Source: a virus
Reading direction: 5' to 3' (one strand)
Length of the DNA: 25,160 nucleotides
IMG/VR virus record: IMGVR_UViG_3300021197_000498
Location: 1 to 25,160 of that record
The translations under genes and the position numbers were made by a program. The notes below the pieces were generated by a model. The model was not told the origin of the DNA. It saw only the letters and a list, made by a program, of their open reading frames with translations, and ran no database searches. Shown here one piece after another: positions 11,934 through 20,557 of the stretch. Numbering within the stretch: the first letter of the stretch is position 1; every line of letters begins with the position of its first letter.

Positions 11934-12099
11934 CAATTTGAAGCCCTCCAAAGATCTCTACTAAATCTTGGGCTTTCTCGTTCATCTCCTCGTATACTTC
12001 GGGATCCGCCATTGCAGCGGCATTCAGTGAACAGCTAATAAACTCCAGAAGTTCGATCACTTGACTTTTGTGCATCTCACGGAAACCAAGAGTTTTCAT
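11908..12099 (-). CDS. Small acidic protein downstream of DNA polymerase (63 aa)
   Basis: 63 residues, Glu/Leu-rich and mainly helical (VIELLEFISCSL; YEEMNEKAQDLVEIFGGL), not recognised. The ATG at 12099 overlaps the polymerase stop (ATGA), and GGGGAGG lies nine bases upstream, so translation coupling to the polymerase is likely. An internal Met at residue 9 is possible but has no better ribosome-binding site. It is the last gene of the replication operon and its end runs 26 bp into the convergent virion gene. A small polymerase-associated factor is a guess from position. Confidence 0.7.
   Translation of the reverse strand: MKTLGFREMHKSQVIELLEFISCSLNAAAMADPEVYEEMNEKAQDLVEIFGGLQIVTQTSLEI
11941..11975 (+). 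terminator. Weak terminator candidate at the convergent junction
   Basis: AAGCCC (11941-11946) pairs with GGGCTT (11970-11975), with an inner AAGAT/ATCTT stem and a bulge on one side. The following TTTCTCGTT is only partly T-rich. It is the only hairpin I see just beyond the virion operon. It lies within the coding region of the opposing 63-aa gene, so coding constraint or chance is a real alternative. Confidence 0.3.
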
Positions 12100-14021
12100 C
12101 CTTCAATACCTCCCCAATCGTCAGCATACTCATCATCTACCTTAGAGGGAACTTTCAATATATCGGACAACCCGTTTTCCATTATCTCTTTAATGCGTCT
12201 CGCTTGGTCGTCGCCCTCTACAGAAAAGCATAACTCATCATGCACCGTCAACAAAGGGGTCAAGCCCTCAGAACAGCAATCTGCCATTGCCTTTTTTGTT
12301 TGGTCGGCTGCTGATCCTTGGATTAATTTGTTTAACGCTTTGTAAGTAAACGATCTTTTCAAGCTGCCTACGTCGCCATACTTTTCCTGCGCTTTTTCCA
12401 ACGACAGAGCTTCCTTAAACCCAAACCCTTTAGGCTCCCACTTATCAAAACGACACAAGCGTCCAAGCAATGTTCGTATCTGTCCGTACTCCTCGGCTCT
12501 GTTCGAAGCAATTTTAGCAAGCTGTCTAACAAACGGAACCTTTTCTTGGTGCGTTGACAATAACATACTGGCCTCGTTTTCAGAGATACCAAGCTGCGCT
12601 GCCAGTTTGCCTTTGCCCATGCCATACATAATCCCAAGGTTAACAACCTTTGCCTCCTTGCGATTAATCCCTGCAATGTCTGCTACCATTTGGTGTAGAT
12701 CCACATCCCCCTTGTGATACTCGTCCACAATCGTATCAACCATTGGATGCCGCATGGAGTCTGGCATGGACGCAGCAAAATGCACCAAGAGCCTTGGTTC
12801 TTGGCTCGAATAATCAAACGATCCCCACTTGGTTCCCTCTTCTGGCATAAACAACCCACGAATTAACTTCTTAATATCTGGGTCACGCGCAGGAATTTGC
12901 TGAAGGTTTGGGTTTGAAGACGAGAACCGCCCCGTTACCGTTCCGCCATCGTCAGAGCGAAGCTGATGAAACTCGCAATGGATACGACCTTTATGTTCGT
13001 GCTTGAGAATTGACTCTACAAATGTCCCACTTGCTTTGTCAAATTCTCTTAGCTTCACAATCATCTGCGCCACCTCATGCGGGTGAGCCTTGAGATAATT
13101 CTTTGTGAACGACGGCACTGGCTTTTCAGAATCCGTCATAGGGTATTTGAGGTTTAGTGCCTCAAAAACCTTTGCAACAGACGCACTGGCCCATGGTTCT
13201 AGGTCCACACCTGTACGGTGTTTGATATCGGCTTTCAGGTTTTGAACCTTGATCTTTAGTTCTTTCTTAACACGATCTGCTTTGTCCAAGTTTACACGCA
13301 CACCGTTAAACCGCATCTTAATCATAAGTGGAATGAGGCTAGTTTCTAGTGCGAAAATGTGATGTAGGTCCTGCCCGTTGATCTCACTCCTCATGCGGTC
13401 CCACAACCGTAATGTCAGAGAGGCGTCTTGCTCTGCGTAATCCCCTACATACTTAGCAGGAAGCCGCCACATTTCACCTTTTGCATCAACGCCCCAGTCT
13501 TTTGCGGCTGCGCGTAAAAGCTTTTCGCTTTTTCGTTGCCCCACGTAATCGAAACCCAAAAGATTTAAGCTGTAAGAAAACCTATTTTCGTCCACTAAAG
13601 GCGCGGCAACCATCGTATCGAGGATCCGTCCTTGGACCTCAATTCCTTCTGCCAACAACCAACCAACATCGTATGTCGCGTTGTGAAAAAGTTTGTCTAT
13701 GTGTGGCGTTGCCATCTGTTTCTTGAACCACTTGAGCGTAAACTTGGGGTCCATGTTTTGCCCGTGTTGGTGACGGATTGGAAAGTACCAAGATTGATCC
13801 CCACCAGCCACAGCAATTCCGACAATGTAACCATCGTTACGAGGCCATCCTGGTCCCATGGTTGTGAGGTTCGGGTCACGAGTTTCCAAGTCTATCGCAA
13901 TAGTTTTATACTTCGATAGGTCAGGGTATTCTGGAGGGCAATTCCAATCCGGCTCTGGGTTGTCCATCTCCATTCGTTCTAAAAACGCTATTGTTTTTTT
14001 GTCTGACTTGTTTCTTGCCAT
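12096..14021 (-). CDS. polA: Family A DNA polymerase with 3'-5' exonuclease
   Basis: 641 residues; replicative polymerase. The exonuclease domain shows DLET (44-47), HNATYD (113-118) and YAEQD (195-199), matching Exo I-III with all acidic residues present. The polymerase domain shows TGRFSSSNPNLQQIP (363-377), motif A SFDYSSQEPR (401-410, Asp403), motif B RKEAKVVNLGIMYG (454-467), and motif C VHDE (593-596). There is no 5'-3' exonuclease domain, as usual for phage enzymes. In motif B the residue equivalent to E. coli Phe762 is Leu462. GGAG lies eight bases before the ATG. The gene overlaps the 56-aa gene upstream by 34 bp and the 63-aa gene downstream by 4 bp. Primase and helicase genes lie in the same operon. 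Confidence 0.97.
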   Translation of the reverse strand: MARNKSDKKTIAFLERMEMDNPEPDWNCPPEYPDLSKYKTIAIDLETRDPNLTTMGPGWPRNDGYIVGIAVAGGDQSWYFPIRHQHGQNMDPKFTLKWFKKQMATPHIDKLFHNATYDVGWLLAEGIEVQGRILDTMVAAPLVDENRFSYSLNLLGFDYVGQRKSEKLLRAAAKDWGVDAKGEMWRLPAKYVGDYAEQDASLTLRLWDRMRSEINGQDLHHIFALETSLIPLMIKMRFNGVRVNLDKADRVKKELKIKVQNLKADIKHRTGVDLEPWASASVAKVFEALNLKYPMTDSEKPVPSFTKNYLKAHPHEVAQMIVKLREFDKASGTFVESILKHEHKGRIHCEFHQLRSDDGGTVTGRFSSSNPNLQQIPARDPDIKKLIRGLFMPEEGTKWGSFDYSSQEPRLLVHFAASMPDSMRHPMVDTIVDEYHKGDVDLHQMVADIAGINRKEAKVVNLGIMYGMGKGKLAAQLGISENEASMLLSTHQEKVPFVRQLAKIASNRAEEYGQIRTLLGRLCRFDKWEPKGFGFKEALSLEKAQEKYGDVGSLKRSFTYKALNKLIQGSAADQTKKAMADCCSEGLTPLLTVHDELCFSVEGDDQARRIKEIMENGLSDILKVPSKVDDEYADDWGGIEG

Positions 14022-14158
14022 TTAAGGTGCTCCGCCAACTCTGCGATTATTGCAGTAAAATGTTCTGGGTCGATTTTGGCTATTAAAACACCGCCCTTTT
14101 CCCAAATATACAAAGCGTCATCTCTAACACTCCAGTAGTAATCCCACTTAGAACTCAT
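13988..14158 (-). CDS. Small hypothetical protein between helicase and polymerase (56 aa)
   Basis: 56 residues starting MSSKWDYYWSVRDDALYIWE, aromatic-rich at the N-terminus and helical and basic at the end (EHLKWQETSQTKKQ). The frame extends further upstream to 14269, but that part lies inside the helicase gene. The ATG at 14158 has GGGAGA nine bases upstream and gives a normal 11-bp overlap with the helicase stop, so I chose it. The 3' end overlaps the polymerase start by 34 bp. No family is recognised. Confidence 0.7.
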   Translation of the reverse strand: MSSKWDYYWSVRDDALYIWEKGGVLIAKIDPEHFTAIIAELAEHLKWQETSQTKKQ

Positions 14159-15689
14159 ATTTGTTTCTCCCTGGAGGATCGATAATGTGTAAGCTGTGCT
14201 TTGATCGTGTGATCCCCACGTACATACAACGGTGCTCATCGTCTGGGGTCTTTGTTGTTCTGATGTCACAGATCGGAGGCACCTTTGAAAACACTGCGCA
14301 GTTATCGTCCTCTCCTCCCTTCATGCTGTGAAACGTAGAAAGTTTAATCCGAGGTGTCGAAGTCACATCCTCACCCCGACGAATAAGGGACTCTATGTAC
14401 ATCCGCTCGTCATCCCCGAATCTCGCAACTTCAAACGCATCGCGCTCTTTATCTGCGACCATACCAAACTGCATAGATAAATCATCCCATGTCAAAAACG
14501 CATCCGGTGCGGCTGCATCTAAAAGCCCTGCGGCCCCATGTTTTACGACAGCCAAATCCCCGCGCTTGCGCACATGTTTGTAAAAGTCACGGATCAATCC
14601 AAGTTCAACACCTTCACCCGCTTGCAGCTTGCGCCATGTGTTCATAGCATTGGCAGACTTTTGATTTACGCTGCTATGCCCCTTGTAAGAGTACAAATAT
14701 CCTTGGTCCCGCAGCGTATCGCCCCAACGACGAATGTATTTATTTGTTCTAGCCATTAAGGTCCATGAACCATTGTCCAAATCCAAATCGTCTGCGCTGT
14801 AATGCCAATCTACACGGCCCTCATCATCCGTTGGATGAAACAACTTTTCTTTGCGTAAACTAATCCGCTTTACAATCCTTTGTGACAGAAGGTGTACCTT
14901 TTCTGGCATTCGATAGCTTTGCGAAAGAACGCGGATATTGTCTGATGATTCAAGAAACTTCCGTATGTCCACACCTGTCCACCTATGGATCGCTTGATCG
15001 TCATCTCCTGCAATAAGTACACGCTCGGCATTCTTTGAGATCTTCGTTATCATCGCCCATTGCAACGGGGTTAGGTCTTGTGCCTCGTCAATAATCAACA
15101 TTTCAAGATACGGTGGCATACCGCAGTCTATGTATAGTTCGATCTGATCCACGAAATCGATTTTATTTAACTTAGATTTATACAGCGCATACTCTTTTTG
15201 CACCCTGCGCAGGATGTTAAAGTCTTTGCTCCAATCTTCTGCCTCATTAAACTCTTGCTCAATAGACACCATTCGATACCGCGCACGGTCAATCATACGC
15301 AGATACGTGTCTCCTGCTTCGAACTCGCTCTCCGGCGCTAACAACAACCCTTCATCGGGGTTGACCCTTGAAGCTCCTGAAAATTTCATTCCTACCTCAC
15401 GGCCCAAAACGCCCCAATCTTCCGAGGACATCATGTCGGTAGAACTCGCGCCTATGCCATTGAACCCCCATGAGTGCAGTGTGCGAAACCATGGCAACTG
15501 CTTCTGGTCGATGCCAAATTGCCCACAGGCTCGTTCTATGGCCTCTTGGATGGCCTTCTTGGTAAAAGACACATAACCTATGCGGTCAGGAGCAACGCCC
15601 CTTGCAAGGGCTGTCTCCACCTCTTTGATTAAAGTGTATGTTTTACCCGTTCCTGGCGGACCAAAAATTAATTCCGACTTAGGAATCAT
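14148..15689 (-). CDS. UvrD/Rep-like superfamily 1 helicase
   Basis: 513 residues; an ATP-driven DNA helicase. Motif I/Walker A is GPPGTGKT (10-17), followed by a motif Ia region YVSFTKKA (39-46). Motif II is DEAQD (201-205), motif III GDDDQAIHRW (228-237) and motif IV QSYRMP (257-262). Motif V is FHSMKGGED (453-461) and motif VI YVGITRSK (490-497). At 513 residues it is shorter than UvrD or Rep (about 670-720), implying reduced 1B/2B subdomains. The start overlaps the HTH gene by 11 bp. In this operon it probably assists replication fork progression or recombination. Motif V has GGED where host enzymes usually have GLEF/GLEW, a local departure worth noting. Confidence 0.93.
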   Translation of the reverse strand: MIPKSELIFGPPGTGKTYTLIKEVETALARGVAPDRIGYVSFTKKAIQEAIERACGQFGIDQKQLPWFRTLHSWGFNGIGASSTDMMSSEDWGVLGREVGMKFSGASRVNPDEGLLLAPESEFEAGDTYLRMIDRARYRMVSIEQEFNEAEDWSKDFNILRRVQKEYALYKSKLNKIDFVDQIELYIDCGMPPYLEMLIIDEAQDLTPLQWAMITKISKNAERVLIAGDDDQAIHRWTGVDIRKFLESSDNIRVLSQSYRMPEKVHLLSQRIVKRISLRKEKLFHPTDDEGRVDWHYSADDLDLDNGSWTLMARTNKYIRRWGDTLRDQGYLYSYKGHSSVNQKSANAMNTWRKLQAGEGVELGLIRDFYKHVRKRGDLAVVKHGAAGLLDAAAPDAFLTWDDLSMQFGMVADKERDAFEVARFGDDERMYIESLIRRGEDVTSTPRIKLSTFHSMKGGEDDNCAVFSKVPPICDIRTTKTPDDEHRCMYVGITRSKHSLHIIDPPGRNKYEF

Positions 15690-15912
15690 TTTTCTGCACC
15701 CCCTTGGGCCGTCCTTTTAGCCAGTTTAAAACGTCTGTCTTGTACCAACGAACCGCGCTGCGCTTGCCATCTTCCTGACCAAGTACCACAGGTTCAGGAA
15801 ACTTGCCTTCATCAACCCATCGATAGATGGTTGCCCGTGAAATCGTTAGCATCTCACACACCTCCTTAAGTTTCATCAACTGTGGATTGTTATCGTTAGA
15901 ATGGGATATCAT
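15679..15912 (-). CDS. AlpA-like / excisionase-type HTH protein (77 aa)
   Basis: 77 residues with a MerR/AlpA-type HTH: LMKLKEVCEMLTISRATIYRWV (12-33), a DEGKFPEPV wing and AVRWYKTDVLNWL (54-66). I start it at ATG 15912, not at the in-frame codon 18 bases upstream, because AAGGAG sits seven bases before 15912. The initiation site lies inside the last codons of the primase gene (17-bp overlap), and the 3' end overlaps the helicase by 11 bp. AlpA-family proteins act as transcription activators or excisionases. Here, with no integrase in view, it may be an operon regulator or an origin-binding protein (inference). Confidence 0.88.
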   Translation of the reverse strand: MISHSNDNNPQLMKLKEVCEMLTISRATIYRWVDEGKFPEPVVLGQEDGKRSAVRWYKTDVLNWLKGRPKGVQKNDS

Positions 15913-17434
15913 ATTTATTCTCCTTAACATCTATTTCTACGTCTAAGTTTTCAAACTCAGGAACCCACCACACTCGTGTGTTTGATCTTTTACCATCGTC
16001 CTTCGTGTAGTTTAGTTTCCCATGGCACTCTTCGTTGCTGTTCAAACGTTGAATGTGCTCCTGTATCCGACCCGTAGTAAAATCAGTGAAGTCATTGTTG
16101 CGTAGGAACTTTTCGAAAGAATCGATGCGAAACATCGTCTTACCTTTGTCTGTCCAAGGTTTCCCAGACAGAACCTCTTCGGGTGTTACTGCTCGAATGT
16201 GGCTTGTGCAGAATTTGCGGAGCAGGTTTTCAAACTTCCCTGCCCGTGTAAGCTCTGGTGCCACCTCTTGTTTGGTTGAGGTACTTAACATACCATTGAT
16301 TAACTGTTGCCAATCTCCCCGTGTTGGTACAGGCGGCATCATATCCAACTGTTCCATACAAGCTTTTTGCCAAAGCGTTGGGTTTTGTAATTGATCTGTT
16401 GAAAGCGTGAGTGACTTTCCCTCCACACTCATGAAGTATAAGCGCGGTTCCGATAACATGATAGTAATACTCCCTATCTGAACCTGATCCTCGGAACTCG
16501 ATCCGATGCCATACTTTTGCATCTTGCACTTTGACTTGTTACAATAGTCCTTGAGAGGACACATTGTGCATTGGTAAAAGTATCCGTCCTTTTTCTTTAA
16601 AGATCTTTGCTGATCGACAATTTCCTTCGACGGCAGAGGAGGATCACATAGCTGTCGATTGTATTCCTCGTGGTGAGTTTCCCAATCATCAGGCCATTTG
16701 TTTTTACAATACACGCCCACGTTAAACATAAAAATGTTTCGGTTCTCTGTGATCTTGCCCATCGACGCAAGGATTTGTAGACAGATTGGTCCGTCTTCAA
16801 AATACTTTTGATCCCCGCTTAACTCGATCTCTTGTACCGAGGCCATCGAAACTCGGTTCTTTTCCACAAAGTCTAAGAACTCCTCAACCTCCAACGCCTC
16901 CACTTTTTTATTATAAGCGTAGCGGGTGGGTGTTTCTGACATAAAATACGGAAGGTTAATCCCGTTTCCAACCTCCCCGTCCTTATCATTAATTACCTCT
17001 TGAGCGGGAAATAGTTCTCCCGAACCGCTAAAACCCAACGCAGAACGCATCTCAACCAATAGTTCCCGAACCATGGCACAAGATTCCCAATCCTTAAAAA
17101 AGAGATAGAGATGCGCCCCGCCTGACTTTGAGCGGCAGTGTACCAACGGCAACTTCAAACGTTGAATGTTTGCCTGTAAATCCTTGTGGTCAAGATCGTA
17201 CACGTCGATATCGATCACCCCAAACATACATACATTACCAGAAGAAATAGGGACAACTCCCACCCCACTTACGCCGTCCAAATGCAATTGCATAACGCTC
17301 TCGTCAATTTGTCCGTGAATTGTGCGATACTCGGCCTCAGTTTTACCTCTGTGACCTTTGCCCTTAACTCTAGTAACAAGATACCCAAGGTCTGATCCCT
17401 CAAACGCGGACATCATTCTTTTTGCTACTGACAT
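15896..17434 (-). CDS. Archaeo-eukaryotic-type primase (AEP/PrimPol-like)
   Basis: 512 residues; expected to synthesise primers. The catalytic core shows FGVIDIDVYD (71-80, metal-binding Asp75 and Asp77), RSKSGGAHLYLFF (101-113, His108) and GELFPAQE to GNGINLPYF (139-164). This matches the AEP order hhhDhD, SxH, then the third strand, in the style of TOTE-type or phage primases. A C-terminal cysteine set (Cys218, Cys289, Cys292, Cys298, Cys303) just before KYGIG suggests a zinc or iron-sulphur site, as in PriCT-type domains. The last residues are NKYDIPF, resembling an SSB C-terminal tip. GGGAG lies seven bases before the ATG. No DnaG-type Toprim motif is present. The AEP class is confident. 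The exact subfamily and polymerase ability are not. Confidence 0.85.
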   Translation of the reverse strand: MSVAKRMMSAFEGSDLGYLVTRVKGKGHRGKTEAEYRTIHGQIDESVMQLHLDGVSGVGVVPISSGNVCMFGVIDIDVYDLDHKDLQANIQRLKLPLVHCRSKSGGAHLYLFFKDWESCAMVRELLVEMRSALGFSGSGELFPAQEVINDKDGEVGNGINLPYFMSETPTRYAYNKKVEALEVEEFLDFVEKNRVSMASVQEIELSGDQKYFEDGPICLQILASMGKITENRNIFMFNVGVYCKNKWPDDWETHHEEYNRQLCDPPLPSKEIVDQQRSLKKKDGYFYQCTMCPLKDYCNKSKCKMQKYGIGSSSEDQVQIGSITIMLSEPRLYFMSVEGKSLTLSTDQLQNPTLWQKACMEQLDMMPPVPTRGDWQQLINGMLSTSTKQEVAPELTRAGKFENLLRKFCTSHIRAVTPEEVLSGKPWTDKGKTMFRIDSFEKFLRNNDFTDFTTGRIQEHIQRLNSNEECHGKLNYTKDDGKRSNTRVWWVPEFENLDVEIDVKENKYDIPF

Positions 17435-17449
17435 ATTAAGCTCCCAATT

Positions 17450-17490
17450 AAAAAAGGGGCGGCAATAATGAGGAGAGAATTGCCGCCCCT
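17450..17490 (-). terminator. Intrinsic terminator between SSB-like and primase genes
   Basis: A perfect 12-bp stem: AGGGGCGGCAAT (17455-17466) pairs with ATTGCCGCCCCT (17479-17490) around a 12-nt loop. Read on the minus strand, the hairpin is followed directly by TTTTTAATT. It begins 7 bp after the SSB-like stop codon and ends about 20 bp before the primase start. This is a textbook rho-independent terminator inside an otherwise continuous operon. Confidence 0.9.
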
Positions 17491-17496
17491 AGCTGC

Positions 17497-18285
17497 TTAG
17501 AACGGAATGTCGTCCTTATTTACGGAAGAGGCTTGGGAAGACCCCTCCTCTGGTGCAGCTTTTACCTCACCCGCAGCAATGCTGTCTCGGAAAGATTTTG
17601 CCTCAAGTCTCACATCACGGGGAGCTACCCCAACCTTCGCAATTAGGTAGTTAGACCACGACCCTTGGTCATTGCTTTCTTCCATTGTTGTCAACTTCCA
17701 CATGGTTGCAAACAAAGGCGGTTTGATTACCTTACCTGTTTTTGGATGCGCAATCTTCTGTATCGCAATCTGCGTTTTCCATCTGCGGCTTACCTTCAAT
17801 TGTGTAGACTTCATGTCCACAACAACTGGCTGGAGCAAGCCGTCCTCGCCCACTACTAAACAGTAATGCTGATCGGACTTAACCAACTCATTACCCGTGG
17901 GCAAAATCTCTTTTGAACCATTGCGTGTGGTACGAGTAAGAATCGGATCGCTGACCGGAATTTCACCACGAAAACCACCCCCCTGTTCACGAGGTGTGAA
18001 CTCCAAATACTTTGTGGTTTGAAAGCACGGCACAAGATTGACTCCTTTCTCGCCGTCAAAAAACTCGTGGGTCACTGTATTGAACATGTCGCCAGACGAA
18101 GCACCTTCAATGTACTCAGACTTTTTCTTGTTCAACTGTGGCGACAATGCTTGTAGTACACGCAAGAACGGTATTTGCATCTCTGAGCTGTCAAAAACCG
18201 CACCTTCTCCCTCGTATTCAAGAATATCATCCATTACGTCTGTGCTTAACTCTGCACTTTCTTTCATAGCTACTTGATTACTCAT
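17497..18285 (-). CDS. SSB-like single-stranded DNA-binding protein
   Basis: 262 residues. The last residues, NKDDIPF, match the acidic tip (DDDIPF) by which bacterial SSB recruits partners, and a low-complexity Ala/Glu/Ser linker (about 237-255) precedes it, as in SSBs. The body (about 40-230) is beta-rich with aromatic residues, but I see no obvious sequence match to the classical SSB OB-fold, and it is longer than E. coli SSB (178 aa). It lies in the replication operon with polymerase and primase, and its transcript ends in its own terminator, fitting a protein needed in large amounts. The start overlaps the upstream gene by 8 bp with GGAGG upstream. Function is inferred from the tip and context. 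Confidence 0.65.
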   Translation of the reverse strand: MSNQVAMKESAELSTDVMDDILEYEGEGAVFDSSEMQIPFLRVLQALSPQLNKKKSEYIEGASSGDMFNTVTHEFFDGEKGVNLVPCFQTTKYLEFTPREQGGGFRGEIPVSDPILTRTTRNGSKEILPTGNELVKSDQHYCLVVGEDGLLQPVVVDMKSTQLKVSRRWKTQIAIQKIAHPKTGKVIKPPLFATMWKLTTMEESNDQGSWSNYLIAKVGVAPRDVRLEAKSFRDSIAAGEVKAAPEEGSSQASSVNKDDIPF

Positions 18286-18466
18286 CTTTATTTCCTCCGC
18301 TTTTTTTATTTTGTAGTTCTTGAATGACCTCTACTAACTCTGTGTTGACAAAGTCAGACTCCTTAAACCCAACCTCATCTTCTCGCGCAATGATTTCACT
18401 CATACGCTCCTCGGCTTTTGAGTTACGATCCATTTCTTCCAACTGCATTTTCTTTGAAATACCCAT
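18278..18466 (-). CDS. Small charged helical protein (62 aa)
   Basis: 62 residues, very rich in Glu and Lys, predicted helical or coiled coil, not recognised. I start it at ATG 18466, which shares one base with the previous stop (TGATG) and has GGAGG eight bases upstream. A TTG codon immediately before it is in frame but less likely. The stop is embedded in the start of the SSB-like gene (ATGAGTAA), so the two are tightly coupled. It could be a small partner of the SSB-like protein; this is positional inference. Confidence 0.7.
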   Translation of the reverse strand: MGISKKMQLEEMDRNSKAEERMSEIIAREDEVGFKESDFVNTELVEVIQELQNKKSGGNKDE

Positions 18467-19023
18467 CAAGCTTTCCTCCGAATTTGTGCAGCGTTTGCGA
18501 GGAAGGCCCCGAACATGTCAAGGTCAATTGGTTTCCCGTCCGTCACACGTTCTTTAATAAACGCCTTGAGTGTGGATGGGTGGACATGAGTTTTGGTCTT
18601 TGGATCAAACCCACGATCTTGCAAGATGCCAACTGCATCCCCTGCCAAGTTGTCTTGGCCTTTACCAAACGAACAAGTAACATCATTCTTGATAATGTCG
18701 TCCAGATTGTTTTCACGCAACCACGCAAACGCCTCATCCTTGCGGTCTTGAGGTATCGAAGCATGAACCATCACCTTGCGCTCGACGGTCAAACCATCAA
18801 CGTCCAGACGTTCAACGCCCATCTCGTCCATAAGAGCAGGAATGTTCTCGACAGAAAGCTTGTGCTTCTCTTGCTTGAGTGTCTTCAGGTGTTTTTCCGC
18901 ATCGTCTATCTGTTGCTCGACGTTACGAAGTACGCGGACAAGGTCGCTTAACTGCTTTCCTGTTCCGGTATTGACGTTGGCAAGCGCACCGCCTTCATCA
19001 AAAATGTCATCAAAAATATCCAT
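18466..19023 (-). CDS. Conserved phage replication-region protein with coiled coil (185 aa)
   Basis: 185 residues. An acidic N-terminus (MDIFDDIFDEGG) is followed by a coiled coil (about 24-58, RVLRNVEQQIDDAEKHLKTL) and a mixed domain containing SIPQDRKDEAFAWLRENNLDDIIKN and HPSTLKAFIKERVTDGKPID. I have seen this general pattern in phage proteins encoded beside SSB or recombination genes, with no established function that I can name. It heads the minus-strand replication operon, with AGAGGA before its ATG, and diverges from the SNF2-like helicase. A Gam-like nuclease inhibitor was considered because of the coiled coil, but the evidence is weak. Confidence 0.75.
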   Translation of the reverse strand: MDIFDDIFDEGGALANVNTGTGKQLSDLVRVLRNVEQQIDDAEKHLKTLKQEKHKLSVENIPALMDEMGVERLDVDGLTVERKVMVHASIPQDRKDEAFAWLRENNLDDIIKNDVTCSFGKGQDNLAGDAVGILQDRGFDPKTKTHVHPSTLKAFIKERVTDGKPIDLDMFGAFLANAAQIRRKA

Positions 19024-19096
19024 AAGTTTTTTTCCTCTTCAGGGTTGATTTATGAACTACCTTAGTCCATGTATAAGACTATATAAGGAGGATGAT
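19024..19096. promoter_or_regulatory. Divergent control region of the two replication operons
   Basis: These 73 bp separate the minus-strand replication operon from the plus-strand helicase operon and must serve both. On the plus strand ATAAGAC (19073-19079) is followed ten bases later by ATAAGG (19083-19088). The same arrangement occurs at the promoter near 24930. AAGGAGG (19085-19091) is the helicase ribosome-binding site. I see only poor -35/-10 matches on either strand, so an activator or a phage-specific sigma or RNA polymerase may be needed. Confidence 0.45.
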
Positions 19097-20557
19097 ATGA
19101 AATGCAAGTACAAATTCAAAACAAAACCATATAAACATCAGCAGACTGCACTGGACCTCGCAGGACAACGGCAGTCTTTTGGGTTTTTTATGGAAATGGG
19201 GACGGGCAAATCAAAGGTCCTGATTGATAACATGGGTATGCTTTACAAAACAAGGCAGATCAATTTTGCTTTGGTCATTGCCCCAAAGGGCGTGTATCGC
19301 AACTGGGTAACTAAAGAAATTCCAGAGCACATGTCAGATGATGTGCCCCATCGCGTAATCCGTTGGGTTAGCGGTGCTAACAAAAAACAAAAAGAGGAAA
19401 TGCGCTCGGTCAAAGACAAGTTTGATGGCCTGACTATCTTTGTTATAAACGTCGAGGCGTTTTCCACGTTGAAGGGTAAACAAGCAGGAGAGTGGATGCG
19501 TTTGAAGTTTGGAGCTTCCGGTTTAATTGCTCTTGACGAAGCAACTACTATTAAAAACCATGCAGCCAAACGCACTAAAAATTTATGTAAGATCGCCCAG
19601 GGTTTTAAATTCAAAAGGTCGCTTACTGGTTCACCTATTACAAAAAGTCCGCTCGACATTTATGCTCAAGCTGACTTTCTACAGAACGGTATTCTGGGAT
19701 ACGACTCGTATTACGCCTTTCAAAATCGATACGCAGTCATCGTGAAGCAATCAATGGGAGCAAAATCCTTTAATCAAGTAATCGGGTATCGCAACATCAA
19801 TGAACTAACTCAGAAGATCGATGACTTTAGTTATCGAGTGCTTAAAAAAGACTGCCTTGACCTACCCGAAAAGCTATACACAGTTCGTTATGTAGACATG
19901 ACCAACGAACAAAAGGAGATGTACGAGTCCATCCGCAAATATGCGTTAGTCATGCTTGACGACGGTGAAATGACTACGGCTCCCGCTGTGATTACGCAGC
20001 TTCTCAGGCTGCAACAAATCCTTTCAGGGCATTTGAAAACAGACGAGGGAGAGATGGTAACGTTTCCTTCAAAGCGGCTAGATACACTACGAGAGTGCCT
20101 ACAAGAACATGATGGGAAGGCAATTATCTGGTCACGTTTCCGTCATGACATCCAAACCATTACCAGCATGCTGAATAAAGAGTTTGGAAATGATAGCGCA
20201 GCCGCATACTTTGGGGATACCTCCGATAATCAACGGAACAATATCATAAAAGAGTTTCAGAAAGGATCAAAGCTACGGTTCTTCGTAGGCAACCCCGCTA
20301 CCGCAGGGTACGGACTAACGTTGACCGAAGCAAACCTTGTGGTGTATTATGCTAATGACTTCAACCTCGAAACTCGGATCCAATCAGAGGATCGAGCGCA
20401 CAGAATTGGTCAGAAAAACAACGTGACATACATAGATCTGATTACGGAAAGCACCATAGACGAGAAGATAGTTCGCTCATTGCAATCAAAGATAGAACTA
20501 GGTGCAAGGGTGTTAGGAGAGGAGGTGCGACAATGGCTGACTATGACCCCAAAATAA
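19097..20557 (+). CDS. SNF2-type superfamily 2 helicase/ATPase
   Basis: 486 residues. A Q-motif-like PYKHQQTAL (11-19) precedes Walker A MGTGKS (34-39). Motif II is LDEAT (146-150), motif III LTGSP (176-180), then NPATAGYGLTLTEAN (399-413), and motif VI QSEDRAHRIGQ (429-439). The QxxxRxxRxGQ form and overall spacing are those of the SNF2/RapA group, which translocate on double-stranded DNA. The frame is open further up to 19052, but ATG 19097 has a perfect AAGGAGG five bases upstream, so I use it. It diverges from the replication operon and likely helps fork remodelling, protein displacement or origin melting. Anti-restriction or recombination roles are alternatives. Confidence 0.92.
   Translation: MKCKYKFKTKPYKHQQTALDLAGQRQSFGFFMEMGTGKSKVLIDNMGMLYKTRQINFALVIAPKGVYRNWVTKEIPEHMSDDVPHRVIRWVSGANKKQKEEMRSVKDKFDGLTIFVINVEAFSTLKGKQAGEWMRLKFGASGLIALDEATTIKNHAAKRTKNLCKIAQGFKFKRSLTGSPITKSPLDIYAQADFLQNGILGYDSYYAFQNRYAVIVKQSMGAKSFNQVIGYRNINELTQKIDDFSYRVLKKDCLDLPEKLYTVRYVDMTNEQKEMYESIRKYALVMLDDGEMTTAPAVITQLLRLQQILSGHLKTDEGEMVTFPSKRLDTLRECLQEHDGKAIIWSRFRHDIQTITSMLNKEFGNDSAAAYFGDTSDNQRNNIIKEFQKGSKLRFFVGNPATAGYGLTLTEANLVVYYANDFNLETRIQSEDRAHRIGQKNNVTYIDLITESTIDEKIVRSLQSKIELGARVLGEEVRQWLTMTPK

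Follow-up and report, generated by a model that had tools for sequence, protein, structure and literature searches.

Matching C-terminal tips of a phage archaeo-eukaryotic-type primase and its neighbouring SSB-like protein change together among related phages

The closest described arrangement is that of phage T7, in which the SSB gp2.5 ends in EDGDF and the primase-helicase gp4 ends in NDTDF, giving a DF/DF pair. The acidic tails of gp4 bind basic patches of gp5, a family A polymerase (PMC12593628), and the gp2.5 tail has been implicated in binding both the polymerase and the primase-helicase (PMC5686142). In E. coli, it is the DnaG primase that receives the SSB tip (PMC5872125). The window analyzed here, i.e., the whole 25,160-base viral record, encodes a primase with the C-terminus KENKYDIPF and an SSB-like protein with the C-terminus VNKDDIPF. 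Direct translation agreed with the sequence-only reading, which had reported the endings NKYDIPF and NKDDIPF, and a search of the complete record for D-I-P-F-stop (GAYATHCCNTTYTRA) returned exactly two sites, located at the ends of the primase and SSB-like genes. The coordinates of the features are collected in Table 1.

As in T7, the SSB or SSB-like protein and the primase of a single phage carry acidic tails with identical final residues, and the replication module also encodes a family A polymerase, on which the T7 tails dock (PMC12593628, PMC5686142). However, the primase in the window belongs to the archaeo-eukaryotic (AEP) type and is not fused to a helicase, whereas T7 gp4 is a primase-helicase; the SSB-like family has no sequence relationship to gp2.5; and the tips, for the most part of the bacterial (I/V)PF type, differ from lineage to lineage while being mostly matched within each phage. 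By analogy, the matched tips can be described as a shared-tail replisome of the T7 kind, built from unrelated parts. Both tips have the form of the bacterial SSB-Ct (DDDIPF), in that a flexible tail, here of low pLDDT, terminates in acidic residues and then I/V-P-F. They differ from it in that the tip is carried here by the primase, whereas E. coli DnaG receives it (PMC5872125), and in that many of the lineages use non-PF tips.

Table 1. Features of the replication block and of the two tips (window coordinates).
Feature	Coordinates	Strand	Evidence
Family A DNA polymerase with 3'-5' exonuclease, foremost of the candidate tip receptors	12096..14021	-	Pfam, PHROGs
UvrD-like helicase, candidate tip receptor	14148..15689	-	Pfam, PHROGs
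AlpA-like HTH gene	15679..15912	-	Pfam Phage_AlpA E=2e-11
Archaeo-eukaryotic-type primase (AEP-TOTE PF22548; phrog_21866), 512 aa	15896..17434	-	Pfam E=3.1e-13; PHROGs E=5e-74
Primase tip NKYDIPF + stop (seven codons + stop)	15896..15919	-	Direct translation
Primase predicted flexible acidic tail, residues 493-512, bearing the tip	15899..15958	-	AlphaFold2
12-bp perfect hairpin + T run in the gap between SSB-like stop and primase start	17449..17490	-	Script scan; RNA fold -24.4 kcal/mol
SSB-like protein (Pam3_Gp34 PF23977; phrog_2402), 262 aa	17497..18285	-	Pfam E=1.5e-61
SSB-like tip NKDDIPF + stop	17497..17520	-	Direct translation
SSB-like protein predicted flexible tail, residues 239-262	17500..17571	-	AlphaFold2 pLDDT ~57-68
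Pam3 gp33-like protein (DUF7307; phrog_2378), conserved replication-module gene	18466..19023	-	Pfam, PHROGs
SNF2-type helicase, candidate tip receptor	19052..20557	+	Pfam, PHROGs

The 512-aa protein is identified as an AEP-type primase by its profile match, its catalytic residues and its predicted fold. Its score against the PF22548 profile (50.3 bits) lies above the curated cut-off of 27, and the residues D75, D77, S104, and H108, which correspond to AEP motifs of the DxD and SxxxH type, were found to be invariant in the primase alignments. The best Foldseek match of the model was the CAPP Prim-Pol (E=3e-10, prob 1.00). AlphaFold2 predicts a folded structure as far as approximately residue 492, followed by a low-confidence tail of 20 residues, and the final two residue blocks have a pLDDT of 56 and 53. 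AEP was the only match within the protein, and the helicases are encoded by separate genes, with no fusion of the primase to a replicative helicase. Thus, the protein shares its catalytic domain fold and family with the AEP-TOTE/CAPP primases but differs from them in being encoded within a phage replication module and in carrying further C-terminal sequence with an SSB-type tail. A TOTE conflict system, which would have a defence-type neighbourhood, was rejected since the neighbours are PolA, helicases, and the SSB-like and AlpA-like genes.

The SSB-like protein is a member of the Pam3 gp34 family (PF23977, phrog_2402), which is present in about 500 sequenced phages; it differs from most of the annotated members (YuA, PB1-type, and related) in that these occur in phages without a primase detectable by tblastn. 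A canonical bacterial SSB was ruled out, as no PF00436 match occurs in the record and Pfam assigns the protein to Pam3_Gp34. Most of the core was modeled by AlphaFold2 with pLDDT >90, and the order of strands and helices is OB-like. A fold search of the PDB gave no match at E <= 0.001, the top match being RPA (E=0.02) among weak OB-fold matches, and neither a single-sequence nor a profile search of the PDB detected sequence relatives. In BFVD, most of the matched proteins were phage proteins without a name, and the few matches named SSB were weak. Pam3_Gp34/phrog_2402 carries no annotated function, and gene position, the tail and the modeled topology mark the protein as a plausible but putative SSB.

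The genes on the minus strand are arranged in the order gp33-like, small ORF, SSB-like, primase, AlpA-like, UvrD-like helicase, small ORF, and family A polymerase, and the SNF2-type helicase adjoins this block on the opposite strand. The hairpin and T run preceding the primase gene probably form an intrinsic terminator or attenuator; by restricting read-through, they may keep the production of primase below that of SSB. Among 141 related SSB-primase gaps, 45 contained comparable hairpin/T-run elements.

The tip is conserved among the relatives of the primase. When viral contigs were searched with the family profile, nearly all the primases recovered ended in acidic-x-PF, down to ∼40% identity; for example, a primase of 43% identity (L011) ends in LDDVPF. 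The set was enlarged by four further scans, and 169 phages dereplicated at 85% primase identity were used for comparison. The PF ending was found in 78 of these 169 primases and in 103 of the 169 SSB-like proteins, and in only 3 of the 1165 other genes (>=100 aa) of the related loci, which excludes a chance resemblance. Unrelated C-termini in homologous primases, which would have spoken against the sequence-only reading, are not found in most relatives; the exceptions are the HTVC023P-type and Nanhaivirus clades, described below.

The two tips were also found to change together. Primase and SSB-like protein had an identical final residue pair in 114 of the 169 dereplicated phages, whereas such agreement with the SSB-like ending was seen for 3 of 1165 other genes from the same loci; among other genes within 6-7 kb, none shared the last three residues of the SSB tip. 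Where the SSB-like tip was not PF, the primase still matched it in 37 of 66 phages, as against 0 of 436 other genes. Matched switches included IV/IV, NY/NY, IM/IM, IA/IA, SF/SF, PY/PY, and VF/VF, with pairs (primase/SSB-like) such as ENIV/QDIV, EDIL/KSIL, EDIA/EDIA, EDIM/EDIM, ENF/TNF, RSF/TSF, AVF/EVF, and EEAPY/KQPY. There was no match even in the last residue in 28% of the pairs, among them those of the HTVC023P-type and Nanhaivirus clades.

These changes were placed by parsimony, and hence approximately, on a maximum-likelihood tree of the primase built without its last 40 residues. For the class of the last residue, the tree carries 19 changes in the primase and 18 in the SSB-like protein; nine of the changes fell on shared branches, as compared with 2.5 expected when changes are placed by branch length (P = 2e-4). 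Joint changes between PF and non-PF numbered five against 0.45 expected, a value reached in none of 5000 replicates, and NY/NY pairs, with SNY/SNY as an example, occurred at three places of the tree. A strict test of independent pairs on well-supported branches, which has low power, gave ∼4.6 changes in the same way, 0 in the opposite way, and 3.4 unchanged (median p 0.06), a result that points the same way but falls short of significance. The sequence-only reading had suggested that the primase has a copy of the SSB tip of its own; this is strongly supported, as the tip is both conserved and changes together with that of the SSB-like protein; the scope is wider than that reading had it, the comparison across phages revealing a matched tip pair that evolves in step.

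We favour, with moderate confidence, the explanation that both tips dock on the same surface of one phage-encoded replisome protein, PolA being the most likely receptor. The ends of the primase and the SSB-like protein would be two copies of one short docking motif, each terminating a flexible acidic tail, and both copies would bind one surface on the phage-encoded partner. By the T7 analogy this partner would most likely be the family A polymerase, followed by the UvrD-like or the SNF2-like helicase. With a single pocket, SSB-coated DNA and the primase would alternate on the same partner, and the alternation would bring the polymerase to the new primer and free SSB locally. We infer all four elements of this proposal, namely, that there is one receptor, that the phage encodes it, that this receptor is the polymerase, and that the primer is handed over in this manner. 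Choosing the receptor by gene content fails because PolA, the UvrD-like helicase, the SNF2-like helicase, and the gp33-like protein co-occur in all 13 of the 13 complete related phages; PolA is favoured by analogy only, on the precedent of T7 gp2.5 and gp4. A further step, which we put forward tentatively although it could well hold, is that the C-terminal code is specific to each lineage and limited to the SSB-like protein and the primase, forming a hub insulated from the host SSB hub, with the code and its pocket diverging together and competition between the tips governing primer hand-over.

The main rival to docking on a separate phage protein places the receptor in the core of the SSB-like protein: the primase tip would bind the DNA-binding cleft of that protein and oust the tail which the protein itself carries, and the tips would co-vary by fitting one core. 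The joint change of the two tips fits this arrangement too, and it is explained without invoking a further receptor. The T7 gp2.5 tail and ssDNA reportedly compete for one surface, and a parallel on the primase side is offered by PrimPol, a eukaryotic AEP enzyme that has RPA-binding motifs and is recruited by RPA. However, the AlphaFold2 model shows no confident docking of the protein's tail on its core, although weak contacts are often missed by AlphaFold2, and we consider this rival rather unlikely. More improbable still is that the primase tip mimics the tip of the host SSB and draws in the host partners of SSB, such as PriA, RecQ, RecO, and Pol III chi. The DIPF ending does agree with DDDIPF, the SSB-Ct of bacteria (PMC5872125), the phage tips are most often PF, and the host SSBs that were examined end in DDxIPF. 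A host receptor selecting for IPF would not, however, predict that whole lineages leave PF jointly in both proteins. The host SSBs of Pelagibacterales single-cell genomes terminate in DDDIPF or DDEIPF, whereas the phage pairs (primase/SSB-like) have departed from PF and read EEAPY/KQPY (L379) and ETPY/EAPY (L396); this contrast within the same single-cell genomes fits better with a phage-encoded receptor. The suggestion of the sequence-only reading that host SSB-binding proteins are targets of the tip is weakened by these observations.

It is very improbable that the resemblance of the tips is accidental or was imposed by base composition or by the overlap with the AlpA-like gene. The start codon of the AlpA-like gene (15912) is made of the Tyr and Asp codons of the primase tip, so the start indeed lies inside the tip codons, as had been noted from the sequence. 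Among the 78 dereplicated PF primases, the next gene could start within or before the tip in 38, as it does in this record, and had no clear start in 21, the calling of starts being crude. Against such a constraint, the next gene begins at the stop codon in 10 and after it in 9 of the 78, and the synonymous codons vary freely, with CCG, CCA, CCC, and CCT as well as TTC and TTT all in use. These varied codons, together with the 19 PF primases without overlap or read-through, indicate that the tip is kept at the protein level independently of the nested AlpA start, and the overlap is refuted as its cause. Although non-PF tips are commoner in AT-rich phages, base composition fails as a cause of the match under the control with other genes, as 37 of 66 primases and 0 of 436 other genes follow a non-PF SSB-like tip.

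The matched tips provide natural co-variation evidence for a common docking site of SSB and primase in a system with no sequence relationship to T7; the evidence comes from numerous phages, among which the tips switched independently several times. The favoured explanation would make the unannotated phrog_2402 protein a likely partner in a replication hub, and it suggests that the docking code of the replisome of these phages is separate from the host SSB code; the matched sets of tips are material for specificity-swap experiments. No earlier report of matched SSB-like/primase tips was found in the literature searched, most subscription journals lying outside its scope.

The tip is not universal, and the mismatched clades (HTVC023P-type, Nanhaivirus, and small groups) indicate that it was lost or replaced in some lineages. 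In HTVC023P-type phages, the primase ends in GKFRT or similar and the SSB-like protein in VPF or TPF, and in Nanhaivirus the primase ends in GEA or GQD and the SSB-like protein in E(I/V)PF. The primases of a group of Klebsiella, Salmonella, Acinetobacter, and Providencia phages end in EF, with EF, EY, DM, or EM in the SSB-like protein. Four further phages (L190, L193, L194, and L214) have mismatched endings, DMM, DLL, DML, and SDL, against APF. The primase gene of HTVC023P overlaps the helicase gene by 35 bases. Across the HTVC023P-type loci L284-L331, the primase tip is replaced by a conserved MDDEFHTGKFRT-like ending, which is sometimes extended, and the SSB-like protein keeps VPF/TPF.

Some variant endings were also observed. 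In phage 023Pt_psg01 (L016:1802-3346), the primase ends in SKTPYQIENF and the SSB-like protein in DSTPY, i.e., a matching TPY followed in the primase by five extra residues. In two related loci (L385 and L386), the SSB-like protein is tail-less, ending in ANHK or ANKG, and the primases end in EPSFK and EAPFA, one residue past F. The phrog_2402-type protein ends in PVF, EQF, EEF, and DNF in YuA, Myosmarvirus, Pbunavirus, and Carpasinavirus (L356, L357, L359, and L360); neither an AEP primase nor a neighbour sharing the aromatic tip of this protein was detected in these four. In Pseudanabaena phage Pam3, gp34 ends in EDDPPF and the adjoining gp35 (L358:9046-9438), a 130-aa protein without a known Pfam family, ends in LDDIPF; a primase of the present kind was not detected in Pam3. 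Proteins of 723-927 aa encoded in alphaproteobacterial genomes (L400, L412, L413, L417, and L418) end in DEDIPF, DEDLPF, NDEIPF, or DDDVPF, similar to the SSBs of those genomes, which end in DDEIPF. Four of these proteins have AEP-TOTE domains and the one in L412 has a PriCT_1 domain, and they could possibly represent a second, host-like use of the tip.
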